DNA of 50,247 nt, from assembly GCA_903951425.1 (NCBI GenBank), contig CAJBBX010000155.1, forward strand, positions 1-50,247, read 5' to 3'. Position 1 is the first letter of the stretch; each line of letters opens with the position of its first letter. The notes under the pieces were generated by a model. That model saw only the letters and a list, made by a program, of their open reading frames with translations, had not been told where the DNA came from and searched no databases. Positions 17,576 to 50,247 of this stretch are shown piece after piece. This DNA is from an uncultured Chthonomonas sp. (GTDB lineage Bacteria > Armatimonadota > Chthonomonadetes > Chthonomonadales > CAJBBX01). The position numbers and the translations under genes were made by a program.

Positions 17576-18580
17576 ATGGTACGATGGGTAGCGGCCGGAC
17601 TGGCCGCCGCAAGCCTTGCCGCAACGACGCCCGCCTGGGCGACGGCCAAGTACGCCGCCAAGGAGAAGAAGGCGTGCACCTACTGCCACGTCGCAGCAGA
17701 CAGCACGAAGCTGAACGCCAAGGGAACCTACTACAAGGCGCACAAGCTCAGCCTCGCCGGCCTCCCTCCCGCCTACGTCTCCTCTTGGCGCGTCGAAGCG
17801 CCCGCAGACGCGCGTCGAGCGGCCCTACTGGATGCCGACGGGAAGCATAGCATGCGTGTGGCCACGCTGGGCGCCGGCACCACGCTCACGCTGCACAAGA
17901 TCGCCGACGGCAAGACGGCCACCGATACCACCGTCGACCTCGGCCCGAAGGCCGCGCAGTTCGTGGCCGGCTCCTTCGCCGGCAACACGTCGGCGGGGTG
18001 CATCCTGGTGCCGGGAGCCGTCTACGTGAAAAAGGGCGACGCCTACTCCAAGATCGCATCGCCCTCCGTAGAAGCCATTACCGGCAGCGTTCGGTTCACC
18101 GACGGCGCCGAGTGCGCCTTCTTCTTCGACGGCGCCGGCCAACCGGCAGTCTGGACCGTTAAGCCCGACGCCGCCGACGGACTCGGCTACGGCCCCTCCA
18201 TGGTGATGCCCGACCAGGGCGCCGGGACCTACTCGTGGCTGACTGCCAAGATGCCCGTGGATGCCCTGGCTGCCTTGGGCTGGCCCAGCGACCTGATCAA
18301 GACGGGCATCTTCGGCCTGGTCGATGCGCGGGCGGACAACACCCTCTCGGCCTGGGTCATCATGGGTGAGGGCGCCGAAGCCAAGATCGTCCTCACCGAT
18401 ATGGCCGCCATCGCCACGGGTTCGGTAAAGCCCCTATGGACCAGCCCCAAGCTGGCGGGCTCGGTGCTTGATGTCACATACGGGTTGGACCCGAAGGACG
18501 GGAAGACCTGGGGCTTCCTCGTGCTGACTGCCGGCAAGGACAACACGGGCAGGACGCTGGAGTTCTTCGCCCTCGACTAG
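17576..18580 (+). CDS. Secreted protein with one CxxCH haem-binding motif
   Basis: 334 residues with a clear signal peptide (about 1-22, cleavage near AWA) followed by KKACTYCHVA: Cys34, Cys37 and His38 form one c-type haem attachment site. The segment after it (LNAKGTYYKAHKLSLAGLP) resembles the short cytochrome-like motif of exported Armatimonadota and Planctomycetes proteins. The remaining about 270 residues are beta-rich (many VYxK, GxV strands) and may form a propeller-like domain; I do not recognise the family. AGGAG six bases before the ATG supports the start. The role could be electron transfer or a structural metal or haem sensor; neither is shown. Confidence 0.8.
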   Translation: MVRWVAAGLAAASLAATTPAWATAKYAAKEKKACTYCHVAADSTKLNAKGTYYKAHKLSLAGLPPAYVSSWRVEAPADARRAALLDADGKHSMRVATLGAGTTLTLHKIADGKTATDTTVDLGPKAAQFVAGSFAGNTSAGCILVPGAVYVKKGDAYSKIASPSVEAITGSVRFTDGAECAFFFDGAGQPAVWTVKPDAADGLGYGPSMVMPDQGAGTYSWLTAKMPVDALAALGWPSDLIKTGIFGLVDARADNTLSAWVIMGEGAEAKIVLTDMAAIATGSVKPLWTSPKLAGSVLDVTYGLDPKDGKTWGFLVLTAGKDNTGRTLEFFALD

Positions 18581-18590
18581 CGCAACCGCG

Positions 18591-18626
18591 GGATGCCTGC
18601 CCGGCTTCGCCGCCGGACAGGCATCC
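18591..18626. terminator. Perfect hairpin after the CxxCH protein
   Basis: GGATGCCTG (18591-18599) pairs with CAGGCATCC (18618-18626), with an inner CCGGC/GCCGG pairing. No T-tract follows, so it is a weak intrinsic terminator or a processing/stability hairpin. Confidence 0.45.
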
Positions 18627-18706
18627 GCCTATGGATCAGGTGGATCGCGTCGAAGGTCAGGGCCGGCCAGCCGGAGCCGTTTGCTGCCGAGGATTTGAGG
18701 TGTTCG

Positions 18707-19966
18707 ATGCCGAGACTAGGACCGATCGTGTGGTTTGCTGCGCTCATGGCCTCCATGTGGCCGAACCCGTCGTCAGGGCAGTTCTACCTCCAGCCCGGCG
18801 AGCGAGTGGTCCTCTATGGGGACAGCATCACGGAGTTGGACAAGTGGCCCATGGTGCTCGAGACCTTCGTCGCGACGCGCATGCCCGCGCACCGATGCCG
18901 ATTCTTCAACGTGGCATGGTCCGGTGAGACAACCTGGCACAGCGCCGGCGGCACCGTCGATGTCCGCATCAACCGGGACGTGGCGCCGCGTCTGCCCGAC
19001 GTCATTGTGATCCTCCTGGGCTCAAACGACGGCCGGTATGTCCCCTTCTCTGCCGACCGCTTTGCGGCATACGCGACGGGTTACCGCAACCTCTTGGCCA
19101 AGATGAGCTATGCGTGCCCCGGCGTTCGATTTACACTGAGCACGCCACCGGCTTACGATGACGTGACGCGGGAGCCCTCGTTTGACGGCGGATACAACGG
19201 GGTCATGCTGACCTACGGAACGTACGTCACCAATCTGGCGGCAGCACAGGGCCATCGTTCCGTCGACATGAATGCGCCCATGGTGAGTGCCCTGCGGTCC
19301 GTGTTGCCCGTGGACGCCACCTGGGCCAAGCTCCTGATCGGCGATCGGATTCATCCCGGCGAAGGGATGAGCCTGGCCATGGCGGGGGCGGTGCTCACCG
19401 GATGGAAGGCGCCAGGAACCGTCACCGACGTCGAGCTCTCCGCGTCCGGCGCGGTCACCAAGTCGGTCAACGCCACCGTGACGGGCATCGCCTCCACCGC
19501 CACCAGCCTCAAGTGGTACCAGACTGACGCCTGCCTACCCTACCCCGTGAACTGGGGTGACAAGGGAAGCGAACTGACCGCGGTCTACTCGGGGTTCATG
19601 GACAGCCTGAACACAGAGCGCCTGCAGATCAGCAACCTGCCGGCGTCGCGCTACCACCTGTTTATCGGTAGCTCGTACGTCGGCGACTTCACTCCGGCCC
19701 AACTCAGCGCCGGAGTGAACCTCGCGCGGTACTCCGCGACACCCATGTACAAGCAGGCCTGGCAGGTGTACCAGGCTGTCCAGACACGAGCAGCCTTCTA
19801 CCGCTCGCGCTGGCGCGGCCTGGAGTACGCCCTATCGCCCGTGGTTAGCCAACCGACCATGGACCGCGCTGTGATGTCCTTGGATGATCTGGAGACCGAA
19901 CTCGCACAGCGCATCTGGACGCTGGCACAGCCCAAGCAGCAGTACTACCAGCTCGTCGCCTTTTGA
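18707..19966 (+). CDS. Secreted SGNH/GDSL-family hydrolase with C-terminal extension
   Basis: 419 residues from the ATG at 18707 (GAGGTG upstream). A signal peptide (about 1-24) leads into an SGNH hydrolase domain: block I VVLYGDSITE with Ser40, block II FNVAWSGETT, block III ILLGSNDGR with Asn107, and block V GDRIHPGEG with Asp213 and His216. Such enzymes remove acyl groups from lipids or glycans. About 200 further residues form a separate region with a beta-rich part and a C-terminal helical part (YKQAWQVYQAVQTRAAFYRSRW), which also occurs in longer GDSL esterases. A frame extension to 18593 lacks a signal peptide and is not used. Confidence 0.85.
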   Translation: MPRLGPIVWFAALMASMWPNPSSGQFYLQPGERVVLYGDSITELDKWPMVLETFVATRMPAHRCRFFNVAWSGETTWHSAGGTVDVRINRDVAPRLPDVIVILLGSNDGRYVPFSADRFAAYATGYRNLLAKMSYACPGVRFTLSTPPAYDDVTREPSFDGGYNGVMLTYGTYVTNLAAAQGHRSVDMNAPMVSALRSVLPVDATWAKLLIGDRIHPGEGMSLAMAGAVLTGWKAPGTVTDVELSASGAVTKSVNATVTGIASTATSLKWYQTDACLPYPVNWGDKGSELTAVYSGFMDSLNTERLQISNLPASRYHLFIGSSYVGDFTPAQLSAGVNLARYSATPMYKQAWQVYQAVQTRAAFYRSRWRGLEYALSPVVSQPTMDRAVMSLDDLETELAQRIWTLAQPKQQYYQLVAF

Positions 19967-19994
19967 TGGCCAGCCCGTGAGGCACGCGAAAACT

Positions 19995-22900
19995 ATGAGG
20001 AACAAGTCACATCTGCTGCTCAATGTCGGCCTCTCCGTAGCGATCCTGGCCGGTGGTCCGGCGCCCCGCCGCGCACTGGCGGGCCTGCCGGTGCTCTTCG
20101 AGAAGAACCTGGGCCAAGCGGCGCCCGACGTGCAGATGGCCGCCCGAGGCCGCGGTTACGCGCTCCTGCTCCGGGCCGCCGACACGGTTCTCGTCTTCGG
20201 TCGACCGGGACACGCGCCGGCCACCGTGCGCATGAAGGTGCCGGGCAACCTCGCGAACGGCGCTTGGCGCGGGGAGCAAGCCACCGGCGGCACGGTCAAC
20301 AACATCATCAGCGCCGACCGGAGGCGCTGGGTCATCGGTGCGCCGCTCTTCGCGAGGGCACGTCGGAGGAACGTGGCGCCAGGCATTGACCTGGTCTTCC
20401 GCGACGGCGGCCGAACGCTGGAGTACGACTTCGTCGTCCGCCCCGGGGCGGACCCGCGCCGCGCAGCCCTGAACGTGATGGGCGGAAAGGCCACACTCAC
20501 ACGCGACGGCGGATTGACGCTGGCCACAAGCGCAGGCGCGCTTACATGGCGCAGGCCCGTCGCCTACACGGAGCGCGCCGGTAAGCGGACTATTGTGCCG
20601 TGCCGGTACAGCCTGACCCCGGTCGGCGCCGGGCAGACGAGGGTCGCCTTCCGCGTGGCTCGCGTGGACCCACATGCCACCCTTGTCATCGATCCTGCGC
20701 TGGAGTACTCATCGTTGCTGGGCGGCTCGGCCCAGGACGAGGCCCGCGCCGTGGCGACCGATGCGGCCGGCAACGCCTACGTGGCCGGCTGGACCTACTC
20801 TGCCAACCTCCCCGGTACAAGCGGGGGCATGCAGCCCGAGCGGAGCGTCGGAGGCTTCCAAGACGGGTTCGTGGCCAAGCTAACGCCAGACGGAGCCGGC
20901 ATCGTCTACGCCACCTACTTCGGCGGGACAGGGGCCGACCGCATCCTCGGACTGACGGTCGGAGCCGACGGATGTGCTTACGCCGCCGGTGTCACCGATT
21001 CGCCCGACCTGCCCACCACGGCCGGGTCGCACCGGACGGCGGGCCCAAGCGGCGCCACGGACGGCTTCGTCGTCAAGCTCAGCGCCGGGGGCTCGGCCCT
21101 GGGGTTCGGCACATACCTGGGCGGGGCGTCAGACGAGCAGATGAACGCCGTAGCGATCGATGCTGCCGGCGCGGTCGTGGTGGCCGGCTCGACCTCCTCA
21201 GTCGATTACCCGGTCACGGCGGCGGCGTTCCAGTCCACGAACAGGTCCGACTTCCTCTACAACGAGTATGACGCCTGCGTGACGAGGCTCTCAGCGACTA
21301 GCGCGGCGATGATCGCGTCCACCTATCTGGGAGGCGCCGGAGGAGACTCCGCCGGCGGCGTGGCCATCGACAGCCAGGGCCGCATCGTGGTTGCCGGCCG
21401 CACCTCATCAGCCGACTTCCCCACCGACGCAGGCGCCCTGCAGGTCGCTCTGAGCGGCGTCTCAGACGGCTTCATCGCTCGCCTCGGAGCCGACTGCACA
21501 GCCCTTGCCGGTGCAAGCCTGCTGGGCGGGTCAGGCGCCGATGAGGCCACAGGCGTGGCAGTGGCGTCCGACGACTCGCTCTGGATCACGGGCGTCACCG
21601 CCTCCGCAGACCTGCCGACCACCTCCGGTTGCCTCCAGCCATCCAATGCATCTGCGGCGCCTGCCACCCGCGACGCCTTCGTCGCGCACCTGCCGGGTGA
21701 CCTCCGTGCCCTGCTCTATGGCAGCTTCTTCGGAGGATCCGGCAACGACGTCGGCAACGGTGTGGCCGTCCTCACGTCGGGACTGGCAGCCGTATGCGGC
21801 GGCACGGCGTCCGGCAACCTGCCCACAACAGCCGATGCTGTGATGCCGGCATCGGCTGGGGGCGGCGATGCATTCCTGGCCCTGTTCAATGATGCGGGCG
21901 CCCTTGCCTACTCCAGCTACGTAGGAGGCGTCGGCATCGACGCGGCCTACGCCGTAGCTGCGGCGCCGGGCGGCGATGCAGTCGTCGTGGGTGTCAGCCA
22001 ATCAGGCGCTTTCCCGACGACGCCCTGGTCTCCGCAGACGACACCTTCCGGCAACGGCGATGCGTTCCTGGCGCGCCTACGAATGCGCGCGGCTGACGCC
22101 TGCCTGATCGTCGTGCCCGATGCCACAGCCTGGGCCGGAGCCAAGGCCACGCTGGCGGCCTACCTCATCCGCGAAGAGGACGGGGCAGGGATCGCCTACC
22201 GCACACTTACGTTCGGCATCGACGGCACGCCGCTCGCCAAAGCCGGGCCTACCGCTGACGATGGCCGGGCGGCGCTGAGCTACGCCATACCACCTGCTGA
22301 AGCGGATGCCACACAGACCATCGACGCCTCGTTCGGCGGCGACGGTATCTACACCTCCGCGTCGGCCACGGCCACCCTGACGATCTACGCCAAGGCCGAC
22401 AGCCTGGTATGGGTCCCATCGGGCAGCGCCAATGCGGGTGCACCGGCGACCCTGACCGCCTACCTCTACCGCATCGGCCCCGCGGGTTCGTTGCGCGCCT
22501 TGGGCTCGGCAACGCTCAGGTTCAGCTTGGCCGGCACCAGCGTCGGCACTGCAGTCACCAACCTGTCAGGACGCGCGGCCAGGCCTGTGACGATCGCCGC
22601 CGCCGCCGCCGGTCCCGTAGTGGTTGCCGCGCAGTTCAGCGGCAACTCAACGACCAATCCATCGACCGGCTCGAAGGCGTGGACCATCGTGCCTGCCGGA
22701 TCAGTCGAGACGTCAGACACCTGGGGCTCCTGCGGCAGCCCCGTCGCACTGAGCGCCAGGCTGACGCGCAAGAGCGATGCCGCGGCAATCGCGGGCAAGA
22801 CGATCACCTTCCGGGCAGGGGCCTGGACGGGGTCAGCCACCACCGACGCAACTGGCCGCGCCGCCACATCGTGGCTCATTCCGGTAGGCGAGGCTCAGGG

Positions 22901-24167
22901 CGTGAAGGCGCTGACCGTCACCTTCGCGGGCGGCGCCGACCTCGTGGCTGCCGGCGCGTCGGCGAGCGTGCTGGTCTACGGCAGGGCCTCGAGCTTGGCG
23001 GTCGGTAGCCTATCCTCCCCTGCGGGGCGCAGTGTAGATCTGACCGCACTCCTCACCGACGTATCCTCGGGCGCACCGGCTTCGGGCGCCGTCGTTCGGT
23101 TCGCCGTGGCGGGCGTGGCGACGGGGTCGGCTGTCACTGACGCATCCGGTGCCGCCAGGTGTACCTATGCCGTCCCGGACGCTGCACAAAGCGCCCCCTA
23201 CGCTATCAGCGCGTTGTTCGCCGGTTCTGGATCTGAGTGGTCACCGGCCGAGGGCTCAGGCGTCCTAACCGTGACGACCATGGCCACCACGCTGGCCGCC
23301 GCCAATGCTGCAGCCGCGGCCGGCGACACGGTCACGCTCACGGCCACGCTGACATCGGCGGCCGGACCCGTTGCCGGACAGTCGGTGGCCTTCCGCGTCA
23401 ACGGGACCGCCGTCGGCAACGGGCTGACAGACGCAACGGGCAAGGCGACGCGAACCCACTCAGTTCCTGCCGCCACACCCCTGGGCGAGCAGCCCATCAC
23501 AGCCGATTTCGCCGGCGATACCCAGTACGCCGCAAGCTCGGGCGCCGGCAAACTGACCATCGGTGCCCGCGCAAGGGTCGTCGGAATGGCTGCATCGGGC
23601 GCCGGCGGCGACCAGGTGACCCTTAGCGCCTACCTATTCAGCGGAACGACCGGCTACACAGGCGTGGCCGGCAAGACCCTGTCGTTCGCGCTGGCTGGTA
23701 GCGTCCTGGGCTCAGCCGTGACCGCGAGTAGCGGCATCGCCCGCTTGGCATGGGTCGTGCCTGACGGGCTCAGCGTCGGCGCGCACACCCTGACCATATC
23801 GTTTGCCGGGGACGTTGGGTGGGCCCCATCGACCTCGACGCTCACGTTCACGGTATTGGCTTACGCCAAGACCTATCTGTGGACCACCAACCGCACGGCA
23901 AAGCCCGGTACGACCGCCATCCTGGTGGCGATCCTCTATCGGCAGCATCCAAACGGAGCCCTGGTACCTCTCGCATCCAAGCGGGTGGCCTTTGAGGCGC
24001 CGGGCCTGCTGGCGCGCACGACCGTGACCACTGGTCCCGATGGCTCGGCGCGAGCCTCGTTCATCGCTCCGGCGGGCAGCGTAGCAACATGGCCGTTCAC
24101 CGCCGCCTTCGAAGCCGACGCCGCCTACACCGGCTCATCGGCAGCCGGAACCCTCACGATCAACTGA
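19995..24167 (+). CDS. Giant secreted SBBP beta-propeller protein with seven Ig-like domains
   Basis: 1390 residues. A signal peptide (about 1-29) is followed by a beta-rich N-terminal domain common to SBBP proteins (LFEKNLGQAAPDV onward, to about 235, ending TLVIDPALEYSS). Seven SBBP repeats then follow (about 238-695), each with a YLGGxxxDxxxxVAxDxxG core and a SADLPTT-type turn, matching one seven-bladed propeller. From about 700 to the end lie seven Ig-like domains of roughly 100 residues, each ending in a LTI/LTV strand, with a GxAxxxYxVP core. No sorting signal or transmembrane anchor is seen. The role is probably adhesive or structural at the cell surface. The same Ig module occurs in the protein at 29668. 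A start upstream at 19884 has no support. Confidence 0.88.
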   Translation: MRNKSHLLLNVGLSVAILAGGPAPRRALAGLPVLFEKNLGQAAPDVQMAARGRGYALLLRAADTVLVFGRPGHAPATVRMKVPGNLANGAWRGEQATGGTVNNIISADRRRWVIGAPLFARARRRNVAPGIDLVFRDGGRTLEYDFVVRPGADPRRAALNVMGGKATLTRDGGLTLATSAGALTWRRPVAYTERAGKRTIVPCRYSLTPVGAGQTRVAFRVARVDPHATLVIDPALEYSSLLGGSAQDEARAVATDAAGNAYVAGWTYSANLPGTSGGMQPERSVGGFQDGFVAKLTPDGAGIVYATYFGGTGADRILGLTVGADGCAYAAGVTDSPDLPTTAGSHRTAGPSGATDGFVVKLSAGGSALGFGTYLGGASDEQMNAVAIDAAGAVVVAGSTSSVDYPVTAAAFQSTNRSDFLYNEYDACVTRLSATSAAMIASTYLGGAGGDSAGGVAIDSQGRIVVAGRTSSADFPTDAGALQVALSGVSDGFIARLGADCTALAGASLLGGSGADEATGVAVASDDSLWITGVTASADLPTTSGCLQPSNASAAPATRDAFVAHLPGDLRALLYGSFFGGSGNDVGNGVAVLTSGLAAVCGGTASGNLPTTADAVMPASAGGGDAFLALFNDAGALAYSSYVGGVGIDAAYAVAAAPGGDAVVVGVSQSGAFPTTPWSPQTTPSGNGDAFLARLRMRAADACLIVVPDATAWAGAKATLAAYLIREEDGAGIAYRTLTFGIDGTPLAKAGPTADDGRAALSYAIPPAEADATQTIDASFGGDGIYTSASATATLTIYAKADSLVWVPSGSANAGAPATLTAYLYRIGPAGSLRALGSATLRFSLAGTSVGTAVTNLSGRAARPVTIAAAAAGPVVVAAQFSGNSTTNPSTGSKAWTIVPAGSVETSDTWGSCGSPVALSARLTRKSDAAAIAGKTITFRAGAWTGSATTDATGRAATSWLIPVGEAQGVKALTVTFAGGADLVAAGASASVLVYGRASSLAVGSLSSPAGRSVDLTALLTDVSSGAPASGAVVRFAVAGVATGSAVTDASGAARCTYAVPDAAQSAPYAISALFAGSGSEWSPAEGSGVLTVTTMATTLAAANAAAAAGDTVTLTATLTSAAGPVAGQSVAFRVNGTAVGNGLTDATGKATRTHSVPAATPLGEQPITADFAGDTQYAASSGAGKLTIGARARVVGMAASGAGGDQVTLSAYLFSGTTGYTGVAGKTLSFALAGSVLGSAVTASSGIARLAWVVPDGLSVGAHTLTISFAGDVGWAPSTSTLTFTVLAYAKTYLWTTNRTAKPGTTAILVAILYRQHPNGALVPLASKRVAFEAPGLLARTTVTTGPDGSARASFIAPAGSVATWPFTAAFEADAAYTGSSAAGTLTIN

Positions 24168-24237: not shown

Positions 24238-27200
24238 CTACCGGATCGGGTCCGTACGCGGCAGCCAGCGGTCGTCCAGCAGTTGGCACTGGGCAACCTG
24301 CCCGATGGCGGCGTTGTTCACCTGCCATACCACCCGCTTGTCCGGCGTCACCTCGATGACGTGTGCCGCATCCTTGCCCACGGCGCCCTGCGTGTTCCAG
24401 TTGCAGATTACCGTGTTGCCGTTCGGCAAACGCTGGATCCCGGCGGGGACAGCCACGTCGATGTCGGCCAGCCACTCCTTGTCCACGCGCCAGACGATCG
24501 CCAGGTCGGGCGCATACTCGGTGACGGCGCCGTTGGCGCTGATCAGCGTATTCCCGTTGGGCAGGCGCAAGGCGCAGACCGGCATCGGCGCCGGCGGCCA
24601 CTCGCGCAGGACCTTGCCGTCACGGTCCACCTCGCGGACGATCCCCTCGGCGGTGAACGGGACCAGGTAGGTGCCCTCGGGCGTCTGCCGGCACATGCGG
24701 AACTGGGCGTGCGGCTCGGCGACGGAGGTAGCCAACTGAACCGTGTGGACAATGCGACCTGACGGGCGCTCCACCTCCAGGAGGCGACACAAGCCCACCA
24801 CACCGATAAGCGCGTTGCCGTTGGGCAGCATCTGCAGCGACGGCACTTCGTTGGGCGCCTCGACCTTGTACTCCCAGACCAGCGAGCCGTCGGGCCGCAG
24901 TTCGCGAACGCCGCGGACGTGGGTCGTGATCAGGTTGCCGCTGGGCAGGAGCCAGGCGTCCTGCGGGTGCGGAACCTTCCACTCGCGCTTGACGGCTCCG
25001 GCCTCATCCATCAGGACGACGCGGTCGTGCGCATGCTCGGCGACCAGCAGCTTGTAGGGTCCGAAGTGGTTCTCATGCCAGAAGTTGCGGCGCAGGGGCG
25101 CGCCGGAGCCCTCCACGCCCTGCGCGTTGGCTGGGTCCACGTCCAGCACGGGCCATATGAGCTCGCCCTTCAGCTGCCGCTCCTCGTCGGTGTAGGCCCC
25201 GAGCCTCAGCGAGTTGGAGTCGAGCCAGACTATGAACGCGTGGCGGTCCGCCGCGCTGACGGCGTTGCGGTGGGTGGCATCAAGGAGCGCCTTGCCGATG
25301 ACGGATGCCCGTGCGCCGAAGCGGCCCGGGATGGTGCGCGACCCGCCGTGCGTGCCGCTGTAGGGACCGTTCATGTCGGTCCACATGGCGCCGGAGAACC
25401 AGAACGTCTTGTCGCGCAACGCCTCGTAGCCAATGTCCGCGGGCCCCTTGCCGGCGCGCGCGTGGCACGGAGCGCAACTCCGTTCGATGATCGGCTTGAT
25501 CTGACGATAGTAGCTGATGGGTTCCACGACGCCCAGTTCCGGCCGTAGCTTGGACGGGGCACGCCTCAGCGCCGCGGGGACGCCGTAGGGCTTGGGAGCC
25601 TTGCGCGGGCTCTCATGGCACCCCTGGCAGCGCAATTGCTCACCCGGCTGAACAGATGCGCAGGCCCGCATGGAGTGAACGGCCATGTAGTTCTCGTCCA
25701 GCGCCTGGAAGATGAGCTGCTTGGCCACCGGCGCCTCGAAGTAGACGCTCCCGTCGGCCTCCACGGGCACGATGCCCAGGGGGATGCGCGGCGTGTTCTC
25801 GCGCTCGTAGCCGACCATGGGAGCCCCCATCAGGTGGTTCTCCTTCAGGGTGTTCTGCGTTACCCGGAGCCACTTCACCTTTGCGCCCTTCGGTAGCGGC
25901 AGGTCGGCGTCGTAGACGTTTATCACTGCCACGGTGGCCTTGGCCGCCGCCTTCGCCGGGGCCAGCGGACGCGTGCGCGGTCCCACGGCGGGGGGCCGGA
26001 CCCGTTGACGCACGGGGATGGGATCAACCAGCCGTAGCCGCTCGTCCTGCTGGCAGGGCAGCAGGTCAATCTCGCAGAGCAACTCCCGGTTGCCGTACCG
26101 GTCCACCAGGAAGAGGTCCTCCCAGATGTTGCAGAGGTAGAAGTCCTCGCTCAGCGGCCACGGCGTGCCGTACTTGTAGTGGCGACGGCCGGGCAGTTCG
26201 CTCTCCGGGAAGAGCTCATCGGGCGTGATGCGCTTGACCTGCGACATATGTCCGTCGTCAGGCACGCTCAGGTCGAGCAGGCAGAGGGACCCGAAGGCCT
26301 GGCCGTGGTGCGGCGCGGCGGTGACAATGATCTTTCGGGAGCCGGGAATGGCCCGCATGCCCATCTCCACCAGCGGAGAGCCCAGGCGGCTGTCGCGGAG
26401 CGGCGCGCCGTTGACCACCTTCCAGGGCTGGTTGCCGTCCAGTGTGCTGAAGGGGAGCGGGTAGTTGCCGTGCGGCGATCGTGCGTCGGTACCATCGGCG
26501 CCGGCGATCCAGAGGCGCGTGCCCAGGCAGTTCTCGCGATCCGTGTAGTCCCACCGCGTATACAGGAGCCGCCCGTCGTTCGAGACGCTTGGGTTCCACT
26601 CATCAGTCTCGAAGTAGCTCAACGGCAGGAGGCCCGTGCCGTCGGGCCGGATGCTGAAGAGCGTGAAGTTCCGCACCGGCACATTGCCGAAGCAGCGAAT
26701 ATACCCACCGCGCCGCTCGGAGACGAAGGCGATGCGCCGGTCCGGTAGCCAGCAGGGGTCGAAGTCGTCGAACGGGCCGTCGGTGAGCTGCGTCAGGTTC
26801 GAGCCGTCCACGTTGACGCGGAAGAGGTGGAAGCAGGTCTCGCGGTTGAAGGCCCAGCGATGCTCCTTGTTGGCGGTCCAGGCGAAGACGATGGCCCTCC
26901 CGTCGAAGGAGAGGTCGGGCGTGGCGAAGGAGCCGCCGACCAGCCGCTTGCCCTTCAGCCGCCCGTTCTGGACCAGCGACGAGGCCACCACGTCCACGAT
27001 GCGCGGCGTCGGCGACCTCAGGTCCTTCACCAGGTAGAGCCCACCGCCGGGCCATGCGTTGAAGCCGAAGTACTGGGTGGCGAAGTGGCCGCCTTGGACG
27101 TCGCTCGTGCCCGGATTGGAGCGCACGGAGCCCTCGTAGGTGCCACGGGCGGCGAAGAGCAGGGGCGCGTCGCCCAGAAGCGGGTTGGACAGCGCCACGC

Positions 27201-28398
27201 GTCGGCGCACGGCGCAGAGAGCCAGGTAGAGGGCCCGATCCGCTTCACTGCCGGTGGCAGGCTTGGCCTGCTCGTGCGCGGCGGCGAGGATGTCCAGGTC
27301 GGCGGCCTCGCGGGCCTTGGCGACGCCGCCCGGTCGTGCCAGGTTCCGGACCAGCGCACGGGTTCGCCGCAGGGCCACGCTGAATGGCCCGGTGTCGCCC
27401 GGTTGCGGAAGGGCCTGCGCGTCCAGCGTCTGCCTGGCGAGGTCGGTCGGCTTGATCCAGACGGCCTCGGGGTACTCGCGGGCGCCGTTGAGGCGGTACT
27501 GCAGCAACCAGTCGCGCAGGACGCCGTCGCGGATTTGCTCGCTGGTGACGCTGGTCAGCCCCAGTCGGCGGATGGCGTTCGCCATGAGTGCGCGCTGGGC
27601 GGCCACCGGCTCACGCGGCGGCATGGGCCGAAACTCCGAGGTCTCGCCGCCGAGGAAGTTGTTGGGCCAGAGCCCGTTCTCCTGCGTAGCCTTCGAGACG
27701 GCCGGGCGTCGGTTGGCGGAGAGATCCGCGAAGCCTCCATCGACGGCCGCGCCGAAGTCCCAGAGGCCGATCGTGGCCGCATCGGCCTGCCAGGGCTCAG
27801 CGGGGACGCCGTCGATCTCGCGCACCCCGGCCGAGAGCCTGGGACGCAGGATCAGTCCGTTGCAGCCGATCTCGCCGTTCACCAGCGAGCCAAACGCCAT
27901 TGGACCTGCGGCGCCGGGGCGGGCGGGCGGCGTCATGGCCTGGTCCGCCTCCAGCCTGCCGTCCACGTAGAGGCGCGCGCGCCGGTCCTCCAGCACGAAG
28001 CCGATGGTATGCCACCGACCGTCGCCGATGTCCCGCTGCGTTCGGACATGGTCCGGAGCGAACCCGGGCAGGTAGGCGGTCAAGGCGCCGGTATCGGGCC
28101 ACGTGAAGAGCTCCCAGTGCGTGGCAGAGGGCTTGTCCTCATTCGCCACGAGGATGTTGAAGCCCGATCGCGAACGCACCAGCGCAAGGCACTCGAAGGT
28201 AAAGGGGCGCGACGAGTAGGCGGCAAACGGGGCCACGGAGGCCGACGAGCGCTGTGCCGCCAGCGGCGTGCCGCTCTTACGGGCCAGCGCCTCGGCCGGC
28301 AAGGGCTGATCATCGCCCATAGAAGCCACGACGGCCAGCGCCGCCGAAGCCGCCGCCACAAGAACGCCGAGTGTCATCCTGCCGGACCGGAATACCAT
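24238..28398 (-). CDS. Giant secreted di-haem LamG / hydrazine-synthase-alpha-like / propeller protein
   Basis: 1386 residues with a signal peptide. Domains in order: a LamG/concanavalin A-like region (about 50-205, including RWHTIGFVLEDRRARLYVDG); a PD40/TolB-like propeller with hydrazine synthase alpha-subunit middle-domain character (about 420-830, SERRGGYIRCFG, WNPSVSNDGRLLYTRWDY); two c-type haem sites, CQGCH (near residue 923) and CAPCH (near 976), the second in a cytochrome-like segment with GYEALRDKTFWFSGAMW; and a C-terminal repeat propeller with LPNGNTLI and MLPNGNALI turns. Similar large proteins are common in Planctomycetes and Verrucomicrobia; most cannot be hydrazine synthases because the beta and gamma subunits are missing, as here. 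A redox or ligand-binding exported role is inferred. The start is set at 28398 from the signal peptide and a GGAGGG eight bases upstream. Confidence 0.82.
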   Translation of the reverse strand: MVFRSGRMTLGVLVAAASAALAVVASMGDDQPLPAEALARKSGTPLAAQRSSASVAPFAAYSSRPFTFECLALVRSRSGFNILVANEDKPSATHWELFTWPDTGALTAYLPGFAPDHVRTQRDIGDGRWHTIGFVLEDRRARLYVDGRLEADQAMTPPARPGAAGPMAFGSLVNGEIGCNGLILRPRLSAGVREIDGVPAEPWQADAATIGLWDFGAAVDGGFADLSANRRPAVSKATQENGLWPNNFLGGETSEFRPMPPREPVAAQRALMANAIRRLGLTSVTSEQIRDGVLRDWLLQYRLNGAREYPEAVWIKPTDLARQTLDAQALPQPGDTGPFSVALRRTRALVRNLARPGGVAKAREAADLDILAAAHEQAKPATGSEADRALYLALCAVRRRVALSNPLLGDAPLLFAARGTYEGSVRSNPGTSDVQGGHFATQYFGFNAWPGGGLYLVKDLRSPTPRIVDVVASSLVQNGRLKGKRLVGGSFATPDLSFDGRAIVFAWTANKEHRWAFNRETCFHLFRVNVDGSNLTQLTDGPFDDFDPCWLPDRRIAFVSERRGGYIRCFGNVPVRNFTLFSIRPDGTGLLPLSYFETDEWNPSVSNDGRLLYTRWDYTDRENCLGTRLWIAGADGTDARSPHGNYPLPFSTLDGNQPWKVVNGAPLRDSRLGSPLVEMGMRAIPGSRKIIVTAAPHHGQAFGSLCLLDLSVPDDGHMSQVKRITPDELFPESELPGRRHYKYGTPWPLSEDFYLCNIWEDLFLVDRYGNRELLCEIDLLPCQQDERLRLVDPIPVRQRVRPPAVGPRTRPLAPAKAAAKATVAVINVYDADLPLPKGAKVKWLRVTQNTLKENHLMGAPMVGYERENTPRIPLGIVPVEADGSVYFEAPVAKQLIFQALDENYMAVHSMRACASVQPGEQLRCQGCHESPRKAPKPYGVPAALRRAPSKLRPELGVVEPISYYRQIKPIIERSCAPCHARAGKGPADIGYEALRDKTFWFSGAMWTDMNGPYSGTHGGSRTIPGRFGARASVIGKALLDATHRNAVSAADRHAFIVWLDSNSLRLGAYTDEERQLKGELIWPVLDVDPANAQGVEGSGAPLRRNFWHENHFGPYKLLVAEHAHDRVVLMDEAGAVKREWKVPHPQDAWLLPSGNLITTHVRGVRELRPDGSLVWEYKVEAPNEVPSLQMLPNGNALIGVVGLCRLLEVERPSGRIVHTVQLATSVAEPHAQFRMCRQTPEGTYLVPFTAEGIVREVDRDGKVLREWPPAPMPVCALRLPNGNTLISANGAVTEYAPDLAIVWRVDKEWLADIDVAVPAGIQRLPNGNTVICNWNTQGAVGKDAAHVIEVTPDKRVVWQVNNAAIGQVAQCQLLDDRWLPRTDPIR

Positions 28399-29667: not shown

Positions 29668-31566
29668 GTGGCATCCTATTGCTTACACCCCGTCATACTT
29701 GCGGCGATCCTGAGTGTCGCCGCAGCCGGCGCCGGTGCGCAGGGCTCACCCGATATCCTGTGGCAGGCAGCCGGCAGCACCGCCGCGGTCGCGTTTTCTC
29801 CAGACGGATCCATGGTGGCGGGCGGCCGGGCTGCAGGCGTCACATTCTGGCGATCCGCCGATGGGACGCCGATCCGGTCGGTGTCCAGCGGCGGGACCGG
29901 TACGCTTGCGGTGAACTCGCTGGCGTTCTCACCGGACGGGACGACGCTGGTCAGCTCGCACCCGTACCGATCGGGCCGGTTGGACCAACTCGAGTTGTGG
30001 CGCGTGTCCGACGGAGCCCTCATCCGTCCCCTGATGGGTCCGGAACGCGATTTGGCCACCGTTGTGTTCGCCCGGGACGGCGCCACGGTTGTGGCGGGAG
30101 GTATGGCCGAGCTCGGCTATATGACACCGGTCAACAGGTGGCGGGTCTCCGACGGCGCCTACCTGGGCGATGTGCCGTGGCCGGGCGGCTTCATGGCCTA
30201 TTGCCTGGCATTCACACAGGACGGAACGCTCCTCGCCGCGGCAAGCACCGGCTACACGCAGGTCTGGCGCGTGGCGGACTGGACGCCCATTGCCACGCTC
30301 GCATCACCCGACAGCCAAGTGCGCACCGTGGCGTTCTCGCCGGACGGCTCGATCCTTGCTGCCGCCGGGTTCGACAAGGTAGTGCAGCTCTGGCGCGTTT
30401 CCGACTGGTCCGAGATCGGCACGCTGACGGGCTTCAGCGCGAGGGTGACCTCGATAGCCTTCTCGCCGGACGGGTCGATTCTAGCCTGCGCTACCGGCCT
30501 GGTCAACGGGCCGGGCGGCGATGTGTCGCTGTGGCGCGTCTCAGACGGCGTTCGGCTGCAGGCCTACGCCCTGGAGCCCGGCGAGTCCGGCCTCTCCGTG
30601 GCGTTTTCCCCGGATGGTGCACGCCTCGCCTATGGCACCAGCGATGCCGTAGTCGTGGCGAGGAACCCGTATGCGCCGCCGGCTGGGCGCGCCGACACAG
30701 CGCTTACCGTACAGCCTGCCGCCGGACCCATCGGCAAGGACGTGACGCTGTCGGCCCGCCTGACGAGCGCAGGCGCGGGCGTCGCCGGAAGGGCGGTTGC
30801 GCTCACCGTAGGGGCCGACGTTCTCTCGGCGGTGACGGACGGCGCCGGCACGGCCACCGTCGCGTACCGGGTGCCTGAGGGGCCCGGCGCCGGCGCCAGA
30901 AGCGTCACGGCAGCCTTCGCCGGCGACACTGCCTTCGCCCCGACCTCCGCATCCGGGACGCTCACCGTCACGATGACCGACACTTTCCTGTACGTCGTCG
31001 ACCGCACAGGCCAGGTGGGTCGAACCGTCTACCTGAAGGGATACCTGTACCGACAGACCGACAGGGGCCCGGTCGCGGGCCGTCCCCTCGCGTTTTGGGT
31101 CGACGGCACCGTCGTCGGGAGCGCCGTCACGGACAGCGAGCGGTGCGCCGTCCTGCCGTTTGCTGTACCCGAAGGCGCCGCCGCCGACCGGCGCTTGATC
31201 GTGAGTTGGTTCGGTGATGAGACCTACAACGACAGCAAGGGATTTGCCACGCTCACCGTACACCGAGGCGACACATACCTCTGGCCGGCCTCACGCTCCA
31301 TCGGGCGCGGCCAAGCGGTGTACCTTCGCGTGTACCTGCGAAGACTGCCGGACTACCGCTATCTCGCCGGCAAGACGATCGGCTTCACTCTTGACGATAC
31401 GGCGCTTGGTACGGCGGTCACAGACAACAGCGGTCTCGGGCACGCGTGCCGGCTCATTACGATCCCACCCGATATGGCGCCCGGCAAACACAGCTTTGTC
31501 GGCACCTTCGCCGGCGACGCAAACTACAACGGCACGAGCTGTACCGGGACGCTGACCGTTCTCTGA
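29668..31566 (+). CDS. Secreted WD40-like propeller protein with three Ig-like domains
   Basis: 632 residues from a GTG at 29668 with GGAG nine bases before it. A signal peptide (about 1-25) is followed by seven WD40-like repeats (about 33-340) marked by VAFSPDG turns and LWRVSDG strands; one repeat is degraded (VVFARDG). The C-terminal 290 residues hold three Ig-like domains of the same type as in the protein at 19995: GxAxxxYxVPEG, AAFAGDT and LTVT/LTVL ends. The last two Ig domains carry TYLW and FLYV starts like the last domain of the other protein. No anchor is visible. Likely exported and structural or binding; the ligand is unknown. It ends 57 bases before the convergent beta-helix gene. 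Confidence 0.85.
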   Translation: MASYCLHPVILAAILSVAAAGAGAQGSPDILWQAAGSTAAVAFSPDGSMVAGGRAAGVTFWRSADGTPIRSVSSGGTGTLAVNSLAFSPDGTTLVSSHPYRSGRLDQLELWRVSDGALIRPLMGPERDLATVVFARDGATVVAGGMAELGYMTPVNRWRVSDGAYLGDVPWPGGFMAYCLAFTQDGTLLAAASTGYTQVWRVADWTPIATLASPDSQVRTVAFSPDGSILAAAGFDKVVQLWRVSDWSEIGTLTGFSARVTSIAFSPDGSILACATGLVNGPGGDVSLWRVSDGVRLQAYALEPGESGLSVAFSPDGARLAYGTSDAVVVARNPYAPPAGRADTALTVQPAAGPIGKDVTLSARLTSAGAGVAGRAVALTVGADVLSAVTDGAGTATVAYRVPEGPGAGARSVTAAFAGDTAFAPTSASGTLTVTMTDTFLYVVDRTGQVGRTVYLKGYLYRQTDRGPVAGRPLAFWVDGTVVGSAVTDSERCAVLPFAVPEGAAADRRLIVSWFGDETYNDSKGFATLTVHRGDTYLWPASRSIGRGQAVYLRVYLRRLPDYRYLAGKTIGFTLDDTALGTAVTDNSGLGHACRLITIPPDMAPGKHSFVGTFAGDANYNGTSCTGTLTVL

Positions 31567-48897: not shown

Positions 48898-50247
48898 CTA
48901 GGCGCCGACGATGAGCTTGGCCTTCACCATAGGCTCATCGACGATGCGCTCCAGCACGAAGCCCACCTTCTCGCAGACATGCTGCATCACGTAGTTCTCG
49001 GGCAGGATGTCGGCCAGGATCCGCTCGATCTTCTCGTCCCCGGCAACATGGACCAGGCGCTTCAGCAGTTCGGTACCGAGGCCGCGTCCGTGGTACTCGT
49101 CGCTGACGAGAAGCGAGAACTCGGAGTCAGCGGTGCCCGGCAGCCTGCTTAGGCGAGCCACGCCGGCGATCATCGGTTCGCCGGTCCGCGGGTCGGTGAT
49201 CTCGCCCACCAGCGCGATCTCGCGGTCGTAGTCGTTGAAGCAGATGCGGACCATGCGGTCGTGGGCCACGCGCTGGCTGAGCTTCATGGCGTGGAAGAAG
49301 CGGAGATAGACGCTCTGGTCGGACAGGGTCTCGTGGAACCGGGCCACGAGCGGCTCGTCCTCGGGCTGGATCGGTCGGATAGTGACCGAGCCGCCGCCGC
49401 CGATCTCCCAGGTGTCAATGTACTGGACCGGGTAGGGGCGGATGGCCAGCTTGGGAAGTTCGTCATCGGACACGCTCTGGTCGAAGACCACCACGCGAGC
49501 GTCCAGCGCGATGATGCCCTCCGGCGACGCCAGCAGCGGGTTGATGTCCAGCTCCTTGATGGTGCGGTTCTCCACCACGAGATAGCTGAACCGGACCATC
49601 AGCTGCTCGAGGGCCTCCACGTCGACGGGCTTGCGGCCGCGCACGCCCTTGAGCGCCTTGAGGATCTTGGTCTGCTCCATCATACGGCGGGCCAGCGTGG
49701 TCGTGAGCGGCGGAAGGCCCAGGGCGCGGTCCTTGAAGACCTCGACGAGCTGGCCGCCGGTGCCGAAGAGCAGGACCGGACCGAACTGGGGATCGACGCT
49801 ACTGCCGAGGATCACCTCGTAGCCGTCGAGCTTGGCCATGCGCTGCACGGTGACGCCGTTGAAGTGGCCGCCCCCCGCGATCTCGTTCACCGATGTCTCG
49901 ATCTCGGCGTAGGCTCGGCGGACGGCATCGGCATCGCGCAGGTTCAGCTTCACGCCTCCCACATCGGTCTTGTGGGTAATGGTGAAGGAGTGGAGCTTCA
50001 GGACGATGGGGTACCCCAGTTCGTCGGCCGCCTTGACCGCCTCGTCGGCGCTCTCCGCCAGGCCGGTCTCGACCGTGGGGATGCCGTACGCCTCGAGCAG
50101 CTTCTTGGATTCGTACTCGGTCAGGATGGTGCGTCCCGAGTCGCGGACGTCCTTGAGGATGGTGGCAGCCGCCGTCCGGTCGATACCGGCGCCGTCCGCG
50201 TCGGTGACGGCCATGGGCGTCTCATAGAGGCCGCGGATGTTGTAGCT
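48898..50247 (-). CDS. ATP-grasp / GNAT C-terminal part of a Pat-like protein or ADP-forming acyl-CoA synthetase (5' end outside the window)
   Basis: The frame is open to the window edge, reading SYNIRGLYETP into MAVTDADG, so this is the C-terminal part of a larger protein; the ATG at 50214 is probably internal. Visible domains are an ATP-grasp region of the acetyl-CoA synthetase beta type (TEYESKKLLEAYGIP, YPIVLKLHSFTITHKTDVGG, VLLFGTGGQLVEVFKDRALGLPPLT, INPLLASPEG) and a C-terminal GNAT domain (about 290-438 of the visible part; FSLLVSDEYHGRGLGTELLKRLV). This is the arrangement of Pat-type protein lysine acetyltransferases, which carry an acyl-CoA-synthetase-like part and a catalytic GNAT. 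It could regulate acyl-CoA synthetases by acetylation; this is inferred. Confidence 0.85.
   Translation of the reverse strand, partial: SYNIRGLYETPMAVTDADGAGIDRTAAATILKDVRDSGRTILTEYESKKLLEAYGIPTVETGLAESADEAVKAADELGYPIVLKLHSFTITHKTDVGGVKLNLRDADAVRRAYAEIETSVNEIAGGGHFNGVTVQRMAKLDGYEVILGSSVDPQFGPVLLFGTGGQLVEVFKDRALGLPPLTTTLARRMMEQTKILKALKGVRGRKPVDVEALEQLMVRFSYLVVENRTIKELDINPLLASPEGIIALDARVVVFDQSVSDDELPKLAIRPYPVQYIDTWEIGGGGSVTIRPIQPEDEPLVARFHETLSDQSVYLRFFHAMKLSQRVAHDRMVRICFNDYDREIALVGEITDPRTGEPMIAGVARLSRLPGTADSEFSLLVSDEYHGRGLGTELLKRLVHVAGDEKIERILADILPENYVMQHVCEKVGFVLERIVDEPMVKAKLIVGA

Follow-up and report, generated by a model that had tools for sequence, protein, structure and literature searches.

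An exported di-haem protein of the hydrazine synthase alpha superfamily in an Armatimonadota genome, with a possible redox role on carbohydrates

What can a haem protein built on the fold of the hydrazine synthase (HZS) alpha subunit be doing in a member of the Armatimonadota? The question is raised by a gene at positions 24,238 to 28,398 of a 50,247-nucleotide stretch from an uncultured Chthonomonas sp.; this stretch, hereafter the window, is contig C155 of a 6.08 Mb genome. No function has been established for any relative of hydrazine synthase, and how the enzyme arose is still unexplained. The superfamily outside anammox bacteria is already known: it was described in December 2025 without function, and the Armatimonadota are absent from the main text of that report (PMC12758564). 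More than 600 structural matches were found there, none of the top ones with another experimentally confirmed function, and this bears out the initial annotation of the window, which had called such fusions widespread and without an assigned function. Our preferred reading, to which we give a probability of roughly 0.45, is that the window protein is an exported di-haem c-type cytochrome of this superfamily performing redox chemistry on substrates that we infer to be carbohydrates, either glycans or sugar-derived compounds.

The gene has an ATG start with GGAGG ahead of it, and orthologues of its 1386-residue product were found at L046/L069 (92% identity) and L047/L068 (98%). Pfam matches and motif positions agreed with the reading of one polypeptide that joins a lectin-like domain, a PD40/HZS-alpha region, two CxxCH motifs and a C-terminal propeller (Table 1). 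The PF18582 match reached 61.7 bits against a curated cut-off of 26.6 (E 1e-16), placing the protein in the HZS_alpha superfamily, and the core propeller is six-bladed. The C-terminus belongs with the Mala_s_1-like propellers (PF22701 at residues 1154-1334, 79.7 bits against a cut-off of 27.5, E 3e-22) and resembles the BACCAC_01654 propeller (PDB 3no2, E 1.2e-23). The N-terminal domain falls within the LamG/concanavalin-like group (PF13385, 35.8 bits against 27.6, E 1e-8), and its sugar binding is predicted. A profile of the family matched Kuenenia HZS alpha (PDB 5c2v chain A) at E 1.9e-42 across the propeller, middle and cytochrome domains. The same chain was the best Foldseek match (E 3.7e-17, template modelling score 0.62) of an AlphaFold2 (AF2) model of residues 431-1095, which was built from 10 sequences with a mean predicted local distance difference test (pLDDT) score of 66. 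In VIA-align, this model superimposed on 5c2v_A with Z 26.8 and a root-mean-square deviation of 3.7 over 527 residues, spanning residues 72-803 of the chain, and the next match was a lone propeller (Z 21.5). An earlier AF2 model that included the C-terminal propeller (8 sequences, pLDDT 48) was used only for its best match. The modelled protein thus has the three-domain fold of HZS alpha, i.e., a propeller, a haem-1 middle domain and a C-terminal haem-2 cytochrome domain, the two sequences being 15-18% identical in the structural alignment; the LamG domain and the C-terminal propeller are extra.

Next, we asked whether the haem motifs are maintained. Their loss from close homologues, according to the initial annotation, would leave only a structural propeller. 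Both CxxCH motifs were invariant in 42 of 42 aligned cores and in 68 of 68 rows of a larger set including three Bacteroidota, after the removal of four rows, of which two were fragments and two were divergent single-motif proteins. Because the genes were found with a Pfam model that covers the first motif but not the second, the second motif alone gives an unbiased conservation count. All 18 paralogues of the host genome have at least two CxxCH motifs, the second coming about 50 residues after the first. Moreover, comparison with a congener gave a dN/dS of 0.10 for the whole gene, indicating strong purifying selection, with 0.04 for the core propeller, 0.05 for the HZS domain, 0.06 for the C-terminal propeller and 0.28 for the helical linker. 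The purifying selection and the invariant motifs exclude chance as the source of the feature. They also make it very improbable that the protein is merely a structural propeller or adhesin with relic haem motifs, since the distal histidine is likewise kept in all other relatives; the observation that speaks for such a relic is the loss of the second haem region in two divergent relatives. These two, L073:7559-11614 and L083:7014-11333, are HZS_alpha-like proteins of another Armatimonadota family and carry the first haem motif only.

The comparison with the HZS alpha active site, proposed as a check in the initial annotation, turned out negative. In HZS alpha, His587 of the CxxCH motif binds zinc and Tyr591 binds the haem iron (PMC12607021, PMC12758564). 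No equivalent of Tyr591 was found in the window protein, where the position four residues after the CxxCH histidine is Arg932 (mostly Asn, Thr, Ser, Arg or Gln in relatives, and Tyr in none of the homologues inspected), and the residue aligned with the zinc ligand Cys303 is Tyr646, which is variable in the family. These are the two residues that make the alphaI site unusual, but Cys303 is a weak criterion because some anammox bacteria have lost it too (PMC12758564). Against the NCBIfam equivalog for hydrazine synthase alpha (hydrazine_alpha, NF052339) the protein scored 28 bits, the cut-off being 800, even though it has the two c-haem motifs and, judged by spacing, the distal haem-alphaII ligand (His772) listed for that family. 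No beta or gamma subunit gene is encoded within the window, and no beta-gamma gene above cut-off was detected in the genome. The shared three-domain fold and the Pfam match above cut-off are what a genuine hydrazine synthase subunit, with an unrecognised anammox-like function, would also display; with the low equivalog score, the missing Tyr591 and Cys303, the lack of a beta-gamma gene and the presence of 18 copies with swapped sugar-type modules, that identity was rejected, and we regard it as the least credible of all the explanations considered.

The surroundings of the second haem are closer to those in the enzyme. His1043, found after haem 2 in 68 of 68 rows, is followed by an invariant Trp at a distance of 15 residues, just as His772 is by Trp787 in Kuenenia HZS alpha, and is therefore probably the same distal ligand. 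This equivalence rests on spacing because the hidden Markov model alignment was off by one and MAFFT --add left the HZS histidine in a gap. The remaining invariant set is the family's own: Cys569, Arg615, Tyr618 and Met910 are present in all 68 rows, and HZS has an alanine (Ala569) at the position of Met910. Judged from these residues, haem 1 is likely a canonical His-ligated haem, perhaps capped by Met910. The non-anammox homologues grouped in clades I-IV by Hagglund et al. 2025 (PMC12758564) belong to the same superfamily and have the same loss of Tyr591 and Cys303. Some of them are paired with a fused beta-gamma-like gene, whereas the window copy is unpaired; the haem-2 distal histidine is reported absent from clade I proteins, but it is kept here; and the large paralogue expansion with glycan-type modules is a difference on the side of the window protein.

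If the protein is an enzyme acting on carbohydrates, the LamG domain would hold it on a glycan, and the substrate would react at haem 1, close to the propeller and to the invariant residues Cys569, Arg615, Tyr618 and Met910. Electrons would then exit through a bis-His haem 2 to a soluble cytochrome, with the C-terminal propeller acting as a partner-docking or substrate-presenting module, and the window copy would work without a beta-gamma-like partner encoded beside it. Several of these features could equally suit a non-catalytic protein whose haems carry electrons only, i.e., an extracellular electron-transfer or docking scaffold such as a wire from a surface substrate or partner enzyme to the cell. 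Haem 2 looks bis-His (His979 and His1043, both in 68 of 68 rows), as is typical of electron transfer, Met910 could make haem 1 six-coordinate, the two propellers and LamG are binding modules, and no partner gene lies beside the window copy. Nevertheless, the invariant Cys569, Arg615 and Tyr618 in or after the propeller exceed the needs of a simple wire, two haems alone make a short one, and the presence in each genome of many copies with different targeting suggests that they are specific for their substrates. A pure electron carrier is consequently rather unlikely in our estimation.

To place the window copy among its relatives, PF18582 was counted in other genomes. There were 18 copies in the host genome, 18 in each of two congeners and 26 in one genome of another family. 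The domain occurred in 29 of 255 Armatimonadota genomes, a survey in which the per-genome counts are lower bounds (at most 18 candidates were scored in each). The spread is patchy, with the domain missing from six of the nine genomes that were searched outside the genus but within the family. Around the shared core, the 18 paralogues of the host genome carry LamG (four), F5/8 type C (four), NPCBM (two), FGE-sulfatase (three) and PL4-type carbohydrate-binding (one) modules. A similar repertoire is found in the PSCyt1/2/3-PSD haem proteins of Planctomycetota and Verrucomicrobia, for which a role on carbohydrates has been proposed and which are likewise large, multi-copy, haem-c proteins near sulfatases, with LamG, NPCBM and F5/8 modules (PMC5615132). 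The cores of the two groups differ: PSCyt1 (PF07635) gave no match in the host genome and 49 in a Gemmataceae control genome, so a PSCyt1 identity was rejected. The LamG domain of the window protein is 48% identical to that of a Gemmataceae haem protein (L052), which combines it with a xylose-isomerase-like domain and a cytochrome c motif.

The genes around these copies were examined as well. The window encodes a GDSL lipase, a beta-helix protein, a sugar-type ABC transporter, a sulfatase, and Gfo/Idh/MocA, DUF4838 and GxGYxYP proteins, and the beta-helix neighbour recurs at L048 and L072. Near the paralogues we found GH127 enzymes, sulfatases, 3-keto-disaccharide hydrolases, Gfo/Idh/MocA proteins, arabinofuranosidases and fucosidases. 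Such carbohydrate-gene neighbourhoods are suggestive of a sugar role. In a quick tree, the window protein grouped with its congeners, L072 from another Armatimonadota family, L048, the planctomycete L049 and the spirochaetes L050 and L051; HZS as outgroup had a very long branch and an unsure place.

A third kind of activity is hinted at by genes that accompany some of the relatives. In the host genome, a gene for a YVTN propeller with a MauG-like di-haem domain lies directly upstream of the paralogue on contig C115 (L065:5639-10449, G000), the sole paired HZS-like locus among the 18; its product scored 118 bits against the NCBI model of the HZS beta-gamma fusion, with a cut-off of 1250. In the 18 genomes searched, ten alpha genes adjoin a propeller-MauG gene (G000 C115, G001 C108, G002 C117, G009 C275, G011 C311, G025 C607, G031 C8, G044 C183, and G057 C10 and C91). 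Nine of them fell into one ten-row clade of the quick tree (support 100), apart from the clade of the window protein. In the spirochaete relatives, the next gene encodes a protein with a propeller, a ricin-B lectin, a MauG domain and a dockerin. The pairing of one subfamily with propeller proteins similar to MauG or CCP is what favours another redox enzyme, active in the detoxification of H2O2, NO or hydroxylamine or in MauG-like modification of protein side chains, with the lectin domain as a surface anchor only; the FGE fusions in three paralogues also fit, and the ancestor of HZS must have had an activity from which nitrogen chemistry could arise. Since the window copy has no MauG neighbour, the modules and neighbours point to carbohydrates, and the operon of the Bacteroidota relatives is of the sugar type, we consider this explanation unlikely, and quite distinctly so.

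These Bacteroidota relatives, from Parabacteroides and Aureibacter, are encoded on plasmids and are 24-26% identical to the window protein over the core, which is fused to FGE in both and also to NPCBM in Parabacteroides. In the Parabacteroides distasonis operon (L118:1259-13932), an IclR regulator gene lies upstream of genes for a propeller-MauG protein, a RidA-like protein and a further small protein, followed by the NPCBM-HZS_alpha-FGE fusion, CcsA/ResB, a small unidentified protein, DhaK, Dak2 and an LsrF-type aldolase. Aureibacter has a separate gene for a Mala_s_1-like propeller directly before the fusion gene, and the product of this separate gene is 26% identical to the C-terminus of the window protein (E 2e-30). 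The same propeller is thus fused to the haem protein in Armatimonadota and split from it in Aureibacter, and it is therefore functionally tied to the core.

Collectively, the module swaps in the paralogues, the neighbouring genes and the sugar-type operon of Bacteroidota are consistent with the carbohydrate reading, though not proof of it, and the same holds for the suggestion of the initial annotation that redox activity is tied to a glycan. Several points weigh against it. Substrate, partner and activity are not known for any non-anammox member of the superfamily. The neighbourhood counts have no background control, and they may simply reflect an abundance of carbohydrate genes throughout the genus; the window gene does not obviously share an operon with the genes around it. 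LamG domains have proteins among their ligands as well, and their role can be one of structure alone. The attachment of haem is predicted from the CxxCH motifs, and the roles of Met910 and the other invariant residues are guessed from their conservation. Furthermore, the sugar-type operon belongs to distant relatives of another subfamily. In favour of the reading, the host genome has a cytochrome c assembly locus of the CcsA type, on contig C19.

A broader proposal, possible but held more tentatively, is that di-haem proteins of the HZS-alpha type, acting singly or together with a propeller-MauG partner, make up a large class of exported sugar oxidoreductases that has so far escaped recognition in Armatimonadota, Bacteroidota, Spirochaetota and Planctomycetota, and of which anammox HZS would be a derived member with exchanged haem-1 ligation and substrate. 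Our literature search found HZS_alpha described neither in Armatimonadota nor with a sugar function. To judge from the papers that could be searched, the expansion into many paralogues with swapped sugar-type modules is new, as are the retained distal histidine, the separate invariant set, the fused or split propeller and the sugar-type operon with CcsA. Multi-copy relatives with sugar modules, one subfamily of which keeps the alpha and beta-gamma pairing, bring the ancestral activity of hydrazine synthase within reach of experiment, and some of them belong, in a culturable gut bacterium, to a small operon of the sugar type that includes a cytochrome c assembly gene of its own. They also supply a further class of haem enzymes as candidates for the oxidation of carbohydrates by environmental bacteria.

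Table 1. Features of the di-haem protein gene in the window (res, residues).
Feature	Positions	Strand	Remarks
Whole coding sequence	24238..28398	minus	1386 residues, exported di-haem HZS-alpha-like protein; single open frame
Signal-peptide-like N-terminus, res about 1-26	28321..28398	minus	judged by eye from the sequence
LamG/concanavalin-like domain, res 62-184	27847..28215	minus	Pfam PF13385 (Laminin_G_3)
HZS-alpha-like core, res 297-1125	25024..27510	minus	helical linker, propeller, haem-1 domain and haem-2 domain
PD40 blade of core propeller, res 535-566	26701..26796	minus	Pfam PF07676, E 1e-7
HZS_alpha middle domain, res 845-929	25612..25866	minus	Pfam PF18582
Haem-1 motif CQGCH, res 924-928	25615..25629	minus	equivalent of HZS haem alphaI; 68/68
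Haem-2 motif CAPCH, res 975-979	25462..25476	minus	equivalent of HZS haem alphaII; 68/68
Met910, ahead of haem 1	25669..25671	minus	candidate axial ligand; invariant, 68/68
His1043	25270..25272	minus	probable distal ligand of haem 2, equivalent of HZS His772; invariant, 68/68
C-terminal Mala_s_1-like propeller, res 1118-1374	24277..25047	minus	PF22701; PDB 3no2

A second haem protein of the window had been pointed out as lying nearby, and its existence was confirmed: the plus-strand gene at 17576-18580 encodes a mono-haem exported protein with CTYCH after the signal peptide, conserved in congeners, for which no Pfam or NCBIfam family scored over cut-off. A link with the di-haem protein found no support, and the mono-haem protein was rejected as a partner because its family spans the order and is also present in genomes without HZS_alpha. 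Between the two genes, the plus-strand region 18593-24167 encodes the GDSL lipase and a 1427-residue DUF7948/SBBP/Big_3_5 protein. This pair is also found in G002 and is missing from G001 (L047), the congener in which only about 70 bases separate the mono-haem gene from the haem-propeller gene. From this comparison of sequences, the two-gene unit has been gained or lost among congeners. Elsewhere in the window, the plus-strand gene at 29668-31566 encodes a WD40 propeller with matches to eukaryote-like WD40 models, fused to bacterial Ig-like domains, and the minus-strand gene at 48898-50214 joins an ATP-grasp_5 domain to a GNAT acetyltransferase domain.

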